NCBI GenBank assembly: GCA_001792305.1
Contig: MGGH01000023.1
Location: 1-34,346, forward strand
Direction: 5' to 3'
Source: Candidatus Woesebacteria bacterium RIFCSPHIGHO2_01_FULL_39_23
GTDB lineage: Bacteria; Patescibacteriota; Microgenomatia; UBA8517
Length of the DNA: 34,346 nucleotides
The position numbers and the translations under genes were made by a program. Numbering within the stretch: the first letter of the stretch is position 1; each line of letters starts with the position of its first letter. The notes below the pieces were generated by a model. It worked only from the letters and a program-made list of their open reading frames with translations, did not search any database and was not told the origin of the DNA. Below, one piece after another: positions 7,079 to 11,732 of this stretch.

Positions 7079-9844
<2,766 letters not shown>

Positions 9845-9852
9845 GCGTACAT

Positions 9853-10374
9853 TTATTTTGTATTCTTTGGTTTAAATCTTGTCACAATATCGATTTTGGA
9901 ATTGGGGATGTAGATTCTATTACCGCTGGCGTCTTTGAGAACTGTCGAGCGAATAGTTACTTTGGTTACTTTTCCTTCAAAAGCTCCTATTTTAACTGTA
10001 TCACCCACACCAAACACATCTTCTAAAATAATGAAAAAGCCACTTATGAAATCTTTTACCATTGACTGCGATCCAAACGATAATCCGACACCCAAAACTC
10101 CCAACCCAGCGAGTAATGGTCCAATATTCACTCCCCACTGGCCTAGAACCATCAGGGTGGCTATAAGCAAAATTGCAAAATTTATCACGTTAAGAAGTAG
10201 TGAGCGGATTGTTTTTGTCTTAGCAAGGCGTCTTTCACTAAGCCTTCCCGAAACTTTGGCAAAAACAATTTTTAAAGCATTTTTTATAACAAATCTGACG
10301 ATAAACGTTGCCAGAATAATACCTAAAGAAATGGCGATTTTACTGGCATTTTCGACCATGAAACCGGTATTCAT
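9853..10374 (-). CDS. mscS: Minimal MscS-type mechanosensitive channel
   Basis: A 173-residue membrane protein of the MscS family, which opens under membrane tension to release osmolytes. There are two hydrophobic segments (about 12-32 and 62-85), then the pore-lining helix rich in Gly/Ala (GPLLAGLGVLGVGLSFGSQSMVKDFISGF). The beta domain follows (FGVGDTVKIGAFEGKVTKVTIRSTVLKDASGNRIYIPNSKI). It is much shorter than the E. coli protein (286 residues): the first membrane helix and most of the C-terminal alpha/beta vestibule are missing. The ATG at 10374 lies 6 bases after an extended -10 box, so the mRNA should be leaderless. The nucleotidyltransferase gene follows 8 bases after its stop. Confidence 0.9.
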   Translation of the reverse strand: MNTGFMVENASKIAISLGIILATFIVRFVIKNALKIVFAKVSGRLSERRLAKTKTIRSLLLNVINFAILLIATLMVLGQWGVNIGPLLAGLGVLGVGLSFGSQSMVKDFISGFFIILEDVFGVGDTVKIGAFEGKVTKVTIRSTVLKDASGNRIYIPNSKIDIVTRFKPKNTK

Positions 10375-10389
10375 GCTATTATTGTACCA
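10374..10389. promoter_or_regulatory. Overlapping divergent extended -10 promoters (mscS / truB)
   Basis: Plus strand: TG (10374-10375), one base, TATTAT (10377-10382), six bases, ATG of truB at 10389. Minus strand: TG (10389-10388), one base, TACAAT (10386-10381), six bases, ATG of mscS at 10374. Both are TGn-extended -10 elements, they overlap by two bases, and each start codon region provides the TG of the opposite promoter. Confidence 0.65.
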
Positions 10390-11069
10390 TGGTGCACGGC
10401 ATTCTTCCGGTTTGTAAACTTCCAGGAATGTCTACTTACGACGTAATTAGAGTTTTTAAAGAAAAGACTGGCTTTGAGGGAAAAGTAGGCCATGGGGGAA
10501 CCTTGGACGTTTTTGCAAGTGGAGTGGTATATCTTCTTCTGGGTGAGGCAACGAAATGGTTCGATGAGCTTTTGAAGCTTCCGAAAACCTACATAGCCGG
10601 AGTAAGACTTGGTGTCAATTCGTCTACTTTAGATGTTGAAGGGAGCTTTGAAAGTGATTTAAATCCCAGTAGATTGGAGATCTCAGATATTAAAGCTAAT
10701 TTGGCTAAGTTCAAGGGTGAAATACTTCAGACAGTACCTGCTTTTTCAGCAGCAAAGCACGAAGGTAAGCCTTTATACAAACTAGCAAGAGAAGGAATTG
10801 ACATAGGTAAAAACAGACTTATCACTATTTACTCATTAGACATCGTTTCTTATAAGTTTCCTTTAGTAACGCTGTCAGTCACCTGCTCTTCGGGGACGTA
10901 TATAAGACAACTAACCTATGACATGTTTAAATCATTAAACCAAAAAAGCTTTTTGTATTTTTTGGAAAGGGCAAAAGTTGGAACGATAAGTGTAAATCAG
11001 TGTATTCGGATAGTAGATTTTGCTCTAAAATGGAAAAAGCATCTTTTAGATTTAAACCAAGTTTTGTAA
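10389..11069 (+). CDS. truB: tRNA pseudouridine(55) synthase TruB
   Basis: Converts U55 of the tRNA T-loop to pseudouridine. The 226-residue protein has GILPVCKLPGMSTYDVIRVF at the start, the catalytic block GHGGTLDVFASGV with Asp40, KTYIAGVRLGVNSSTLDVEGSFE, VPAFSAAKHEGKPLYKLAREG and CSSGTYIRQLTYDM. It is shorter than E. coli TruB (314 residues) and ends after the catalytic domain, so the C-terminal PUA domain is absent. Divergent from mscS over a 14-base gap with a shared overlapping promoter. A LytR_C-domain gene follows after 9 bases and is probably in the same transcript. Confidence 0.93.
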   Translation: MVHGILPVCKLPGMSTYDVIRVFKEKTGFEGKVGHGGTLDVFASGVVYLLLGEATKWFDELLKLPKTYIAGVRLGVNSSTLDVEGSFESDLNPSRLEISDIKANLAKFKGEILQTVPAFSAAKHEGKPLYKLAREGIDIGKNRLITIYSLDIVSYKFPLVTLSVTCSSGTYIRQLTYDMFKSLNQKSFLYFLERAKVGTISVNQCIRIVDFALKWKKHLLDLNQVL

Positions 11070-11078
11070 TATTTAACT

Positions 11079-11732
11079 ATGGAGAAAGAAAAACTTAAAA
11101 GGAAAAGTAAAAGGCACGTAAAAGCTATAGTTGAGGAAACAGTTCCCTTGGAAAGTGCCGTAGAAACTTCAGAACAACCGCATGGCATTATCGGTGAAGA
11201 GGTTAAGAAAGAAGAAATTAGAGAAGCAGAAAAAGAGCAAGGGAAAAATGTCCTTAAACTTTTTACAATCGCGTTTTTATCAATGATTTTTGTGGCAATA
11301 GTAACTGGTGGGGTTTATACTTACCTTAGCGGAGTTAGCTTGTCCAAAAATGAAATTAAGATAACTCCAGTGCTTACACCTACCCCTCCCGGTACTCCCG
11401 AGCCAAGTGCAGCACCCGAAACGACGCCGGAGGCTACTAAAAAACCAGACATTACACCTTACAAGGTTAACGTATTAAACGGCAGCGGGAAAATAGGAGT
11501 TGCAAGCCAAATAAAGACAGATCTTGCCACCGGAGGTTTTAAAAAAATAACTACAAACAACGCAAATTCTTTTGATTATCAGGAGACCTTGGTATCAGCT
11601 AAAGAAAATGTTCCTGAAACGGTTACGAATCTGATTAAAGAGATTCTTTCCAAAAAATATACAGTTGCCGACGGAGAGAGCTTGAAGGAAAGTTCAAGTT
11701 TTGATATAGAGATTATTCTAGGATTGAAGTAG
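11079..11732 (+). CDS. Membrane-anchored LytR C-terminal-domain protein
   Basis: A 217-residue protein in four parts: a charged Lys/Glu-rich cytoplasmic region (1-60); one membrane helix (about 63-86, LFTIAFLSMIFVAIVTGGVY); a Pro/Thr linker (about 100-125); and an extracytoplasmic LytR_C domain (about 126-217) with the block YKVNVLNGSGKIGVASQI, typical 'V.VLNGSG..G.A' of this family. LytR_C domains accompany wall-polymer ligases but stand alone here; a wall-associated role is inferred. Its last 20 bases overlap the end of the convergent M23 peptidase gene. Confidence 0.82.
   Translation: MEKEKLKRKSKRHVKAIVEETVPLESAVETSEQPHGIIGEEVKKEEIREAEKEQGKNVLKLFTIAFLSMIFVAIVTGGVYTYLSGVSLSKNEIKITPVLTPTPPGTPEPSAAPETTPEATKKPDITPYKVNVLNGSGKIGVASQIKTDLATGGFKKITTNNANSFDYQETLVSAKENVPETVTNLIKEILSKKYTVADGESLKESSSFDIEIILGLK

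Follow-up and report, generated by a model that had tools for sequence, protein, structure and literature searches.

A probable compact, recurrent bidirectional promoter with predicted leaderless starts between mscS and truB in a Woesebacteria genome

How are two divergent genes transcribed when their start codons are separated by 14 nt? The question arises from a window of 34,346 nucleotides, the whole stretch of DNA that was analysed, which belongs to a 0.85 Mb genome in 37 contigs. The host is a Woesebacteria-like member of the Patescibacteria (CPR); its GroEL shares up to 84% identity with that of Candidatus Woesebacteria (Microgenomates, Patescibacteria). On the minus strand, the mscS open reading frame (9853–10374, with its ATG at 10374–10372) encodes a small mechanosensitive channel of 173 aa (Pfam MS_channel_2nd, 1.7e-17; MS_channel_1st, 1.4e-10). 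On the plus strand, the truB open reading frame (10389–11069) encodes a tRNA pseudouridine synthase of 226 aa with the TruB_N domain only (Pfam, 5.3e-43). Each is closely followed by a further open reading frame. A nucleotidyltransferase-like gene (9023–9844, minus strand; Pfam Adenyl_transf, 3.9e-09) lies 8 nt downstream of mscS and is probably on the same transcript. A LytR_C-domain gene (11079–11732, plus strand) lies 9 nt downstream of truB, an order kept in a second genome of the same genus (G001), and probably shares the truB transcript.

The gap, GCTATTATTGTACC, occupies positions 10375–10388 and is flanked by CAT (10372–10374) on the left and by ATG (10389–10391) on the right. Read on the plus strand, TG (10374–10375) and one further base (10376) form the extension TGC (10374–10376), followed by the putative truB −10 hexamer TATTAT (10377–10382), a 6-nt spacer and the truB ATG. 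On the minus strand, TG (10389–10388) and one further base (10387) form the extension TGG (10387–10389), followed by the putative mscS −10 hexamer TACAAT (10386–10381), a 6-nt spacer and the mscS ATG at 10374. The two hexamers share positions 10381–10382, which read AT on either strand. The motifs, the spacings and the two-base overlap had been described in a first-pass annotation of this DNA, and the description was exact on re-reading. That annotation also had each start codon double as the TG of the opposite promoter. This holds for the T of each TG, which pairs with the A of the opposite ATG, but not for the G, which is the outermost base of the gap. With both start codons included, the whole two-way module is CATGCTATTATTGTACCATG (10372–10391).

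Both ATG codons are forced, since neither mscS nor truB has another in-frame ATG, GTG or TTG after the upstream stop codon, and M1 is a plausible start common to the same-genus orthologues of both proteins. Direct reading of the 14-nt gap found no purine-rich stretch resembling a Shine–Dalgarno sequence on either strand. No −35-like hexamer was found in register with either −10 hexamer, as expected for extended −10 promoters. With six bases between the end of a −10 hexamer and an ATG, +1 falls on the A, and both mRNAs are therefore predicted to be leaderless, a property that the first-pass annotation missed. The predicted start sites, from the −10/+1 distance, are 10389 for truB and 10374 for mscS, 15 bp apart.

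We consider, with a probability of about 0.8, that the start codons of mscS and truB and the gap between them, 20 bp in all, are one symmetric bidirectional promoter, leaderless both ways and used by polymerase in one orientation at a time. Read on either strand, the core TATTATTGTA would offer a −10 hexamer of acceptable quality (TANNAT), with the last two bases common to both. Each start codon and the adjoining G of the gap would jointly supply TG at −15/−14 of the opposite promoter and so replace a −35 element. The housekeeping holoenzyme would bind in one of two orientations and melt the shared AT, and transcription would start at the A of the ATG, 7 bp downstream of the last base of the hexamer. 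The product would be a leaderless mRNA of mscS (with the nucleotidyltransferase-like gene) or of truB (with the LytR_C gene), read by the ribosome from its 5′ AUG. While one orientation is bound, we infer, the other would be excluded.

The components of this scheme have precedents. Bidirectional promoters of bacteria are reportedly the subject of Warman et al. (2021) in Nat Microbiol. In two later papers, the start sites of such promoters are 7–25 bp apart, with 18 bp the commonest distance and 10 and 23 bp also common (Middlemiss et al., 2023, PMC10268837; Warman et al., 2026, PMC12825309), and steric constraints bar simultaneous binding of polymerases (PMC12825309). The mscS–truB gap resembles these Warman/Grainger promoters in its pseudo-symmetric, overlapping −10 hexamers on opposite strands (10377–10382, plus; 10381–10386, minus), in a predicted start spacing that falls within the 7–25 bp range, and in the predicted steric exclusion of a second polymerase. 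The geometry of the overlap and the published work (PMC12825309) both favour the earlier proposal that polymerase could serve only one side at a time. The gap differs from the E. coli promoters in its predicted spacing of 15 bp versus the preferred 18 bp. It differs also in that the predicted +1 positions coincide with the start codons, so that neither side would have a 5′ UTR, and the promoter is the whole intergenic region.

Leaderless genes elsewhere have a TANNNT −10 element approximately 12 bp before the start codon (Zheng et al., 2011, PMC3160421; M. tuberculosis, PMC3898074; Deinococcus-Thermus, PMC12340547). Both hexamers here likewise begin 12 bp upstream of an ATG, with no Shine–Dalgarno sequence and with +1 predicted on the A. 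Known leaderless cases concern one gene, whereas two predicted leaderless promoters interlock here in 14 bp. As in extended −10 promoters, TG stands one base ahead of the hexamer on both strands and there is no −35-like site in register; unlike in those promoters, the start codon of the opposite gene lends half of each TG. No description of leaderless genes in Patescibacteria, or of double-leaderless bidirectional promoters, was found in the openly licensed literature. The locus appears to be a very compact form of two known promoter types, the bidirectional and the leaderless TANNNT type, and, as judged from sequence comparison, one that is real, conserved and recurrent.

Evidence of conservation comes from G001, which has the same gene order and an identical 20-mer (L003, 1117–1136). 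Both TGn motifs, both hexamers and both 6-base spacings are intact there, a comparison that had been set beforehand as a test of the promoter proposal; the sequence and this same-genus comparison together support two overlapping extended −10 promoters. The identical run of 24 bp at 10368–10391 is the longest within the 1217-bp mscS–truB region. Protein identity to the orthologues in G001 is 65% for TruB and 80% for MscS, which is of equal length. The two genomes are well diverged, since third codon positions are 45% identical in mscS and 39% in truB. At third-position identities of 39–45%, all 14 gap bases being unchanged has a probability of ∼2e-6 to 1.4e-5. The perfect identity could stem in part from several constraints that overlap on the same 20 bp. 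Conservation of this gap rests on one comparison, because the mscS–truB adjacency was found in two genomes, both of one genus. No relatives of mscS or truB were found near groEL in 80 Microgenomates loci. TruB relatives are present in 21 of 50 family genomes and outside the genus are mostly 33–41% identical, and a MscS of this type is absent outside the genus among the same 50 genomes. A scan of genome contigs for TruB matched nothing.

The spacing between hexamer and start codon was also surveyed genome-wide, in 325 kb of the same genome as the window and 361 kb of the same-genus genome, with genes called by a simple codon-score script. Among divergent genes, TANNNT lies 6–8 nt before the first ATG in 35 of 75 cases in the first sample and in 32 of 72 in the second, versus 3.6 and 3.3 expected from internal ATGs. 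TG stands ahead of 19 of 64 such hexamers. This concentration just ahead of divergent start codons suggests that leaderless −10 promoters are an ordinary mode of expression in the lineage. In both samples the distance tends towards maxima at 6 and 8 nt, with fewer cases at 7 nt; for divergent genes with longer gaps the counts at 6, 7 and 8 nt are 10, 5 and 13 in one sample and 12, 5 and 7 in the other. Since there are two peaks, some starts may have a leader of 1–2 nt.

Recurrence of the design was examined at two levels of stringency. In 50 family genomes, the wide pattern CATN{2,4}TANNATNNTAN{2,4}ATG has 51 sites versus 33–34 in controls. Thirteen of 49 such sites lie exactly between divergent open reading frames (at least 50 aa), versus none of the 22 sites examined for the control with swapped core. 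Because the wide pattern is only mildly enriched in the family, the stricter double-TGn pattern was used together with gene context. In 380 Patescibacteria genomes the 14-nt double-TGn form CATGNTANNATNNTANCATG, with the symmetric motif CATGnTAnnATnnTAnCATG, has 22 sites, versus two when the core blocks are swapped and none for the reversed pattern. Sixteen of these sites are flanked by divergent open reading frames whose start codons are precisely the two ATGs of the motif; the remaining six do not separate two genes. Of the two swapped-control sites, one is also two-sided, with open reading frames of 81 and 52 aa. In viral contigs, taken as a comparison of context only, six of 82 sites are two-sided among the matches listed.

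The gene pairs at these sites are unrelated to one another. Pairs identified by Pfam are seryl-tRNA synthetase/DprA and TsaE/Mur ligase and, in the family, GDSL lipase/NAD-binding oxidoreductase. Four more sites have one partner identified by Pfam, a superoxide dismutase, glycosyltransferase, methyltransferase or DsbD-like protein, and further pairs, read from sequence, include glycyl-tRNA synthetase/ABC transporter and UvrD-like helicase/LytR-like. In two genomes of another genus, the glycyl-tRNA synthetase/ABC transporter gap is equal in 18 of 20 bases, with both changes at "n" positions, and third codon positions there are 34–49% identical. Since the motif recurs at unrelated pairs and this gap has changed only at "n" positions, it is the skeleton, rather than any gene pair, that is kept by selection.

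The alternative that survives best is that one hexamer only is a working promoter. The other would be a by-product of −10 symmetry, and its gene would be transcribed either from within the adjacent coding sequence or only very weakly. Symmetric −10 elements do arise easily (PMC10268837), and TACAAT and TATTAT are each one mismatch from consensus, so that neither is clearly dominant. We regard this reading as unlikely: the same-genus genome has kept both hexamers with their TGn extensions and spacings, and the motif sites elsewhere mostly have gene context on two sides. Moreover, no other promoter-like site stands out above shuffled sequence in 9800–11200, and mscS and truB are both without an alternative start or a leader resembling a Shine–Dalgarno sequence. 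A second alternative, in which a dimeric regulator of both genes binds the symmetric 20-mer as its operator and the promoters are secondary, would fit a strongly conserved near-palindrome. It is highly improbable, as other genomes have this skeleton between many gene pairs that are unrelated, and the letters kept are those of the −10 hexamers, TG and start codons while inner and outer n positions vary, unlike in a single operator. That two loose TANNNT matches in an AT-rich 14-nt gap arose by chance and were kept through too little divergence is scarcely credible, for although loose matches are frequent, as the modest excess of the wide pattern in the family illustrates, the genome comparison largely refutes this with its degree of third-position divergence, the excess of the strict motif between divergent start codons and the lineage-wide leaderless spacing peak.

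The bidirectional promoter can also be considered in terms of size. By counting, 14 nt is the shortest gap that fits both hexamers and both TGs when the start codons contribute only one base to each TG. In a gap of 12 or 13 nt, TG would land on letters of CAT that are unable to be TG; at 13 nt, the shared base would need to be T on both strands. A histogram of divergent gap lengths (1.9 Mb, 200 pairs; genes called by a simple codon-score script) has no ATG-to-ATG gaps of 7–13 nt and four of exactly 14 nt, two of which are the mscS–truB pair and its orthologue. A lower edge at 14 nt is suggestive, the numbers being small. The description of this promoter as the smallest possible was nevertheless too strong: one can conceive of shorter gaps in which a hexamer lies within a coding region, and published start sites can be 10 bp apart. 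Hexamers that share AT can both match the consensus in full (TATAATTATA), a possibility that the 18-bp arrangement rules out. Across the 380 Patescibacteria genomes, an 18-bp double-TGn pattern of equal specificity has eight sites, one of them two-sided, versus one in its control; the 15-bp form, with 22 sites, is the commoner.

Since relatives reuse the design between unrelated genes, the gap looks like a compact promoter serving two directions and not like a dedicated link between mscS and truB. The functional coupling of tRNA modification with osmotic release that had been suggested is not supported, given this reuse and the occurrence of the pair in one genus. In addition, traffic at five E. 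coli bidirectional promoters is too low for competition at basal activity, so that opposing promoters hardly compete (PMC12825309). The mscS–truB coupling is probably incidental, and the design most likely serves the compact packing of head-to-head genes. On balance, the gap is most plausibly a minimal bidirectional leaderless promoter of recurrent design, with predicted start sites. A more specific proposal is made tentatively and is doubtful in its full extent: CATGnTAnnATnnTAnCATG may be a distinct 20-bp module of Patescibacteria that evolved recurrently, in which letters common to start codons and promoter elements fuse the starts of transcription and translation on both strands and make expression of the gene pair mutually exclusive, limiting noise.

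Such a promoter would show how small the space between bacterial genes can become, with two promoters in 14 bases and start codons serving as promoter letters. It provides a sequence-level, testable case for common leaderless expression in Patescibacteria, which are mostly unculturable, and a naturally occurring minimal construct with which to test how polymerases compete at bidirectional promoters. It may also aid the annotation of such genomes, where start codons are easier to pin down because a −10 hexamer six bases before an ATG marks the start.

Several minor observations were made. In other Patescibacteria, a 14-nt double promoter of this type lies between a housekeeping gene, for example that of seryl- or glycyl-tRNA synthetase, and an unrelated neighbour (L228, L230/L236, L231, L229 and L225). 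Locus L223 has at 1501–1528 (G245:C1:126332–126359) two overlapping copies of the motif, CATGGTAACATGTTAACATGGTAACATG, with no long open reading frames on either side, and is possibly a repeat rather than a promoter. A contig labelled Zixiibacteriota (L196) has a Microgenomates-like GroEL with 68% identity to that of the window, which suggests that it is mis-binned. Finally, the nucleotidyltransferase-like gene at 9023–9844 (minus strand) stands between groEL and mscS in the window and is absent from this place in G001, where the end of mscS adjoins the end of groEL. The mscS transcription unit has either gained this gene by insertion or lost it.
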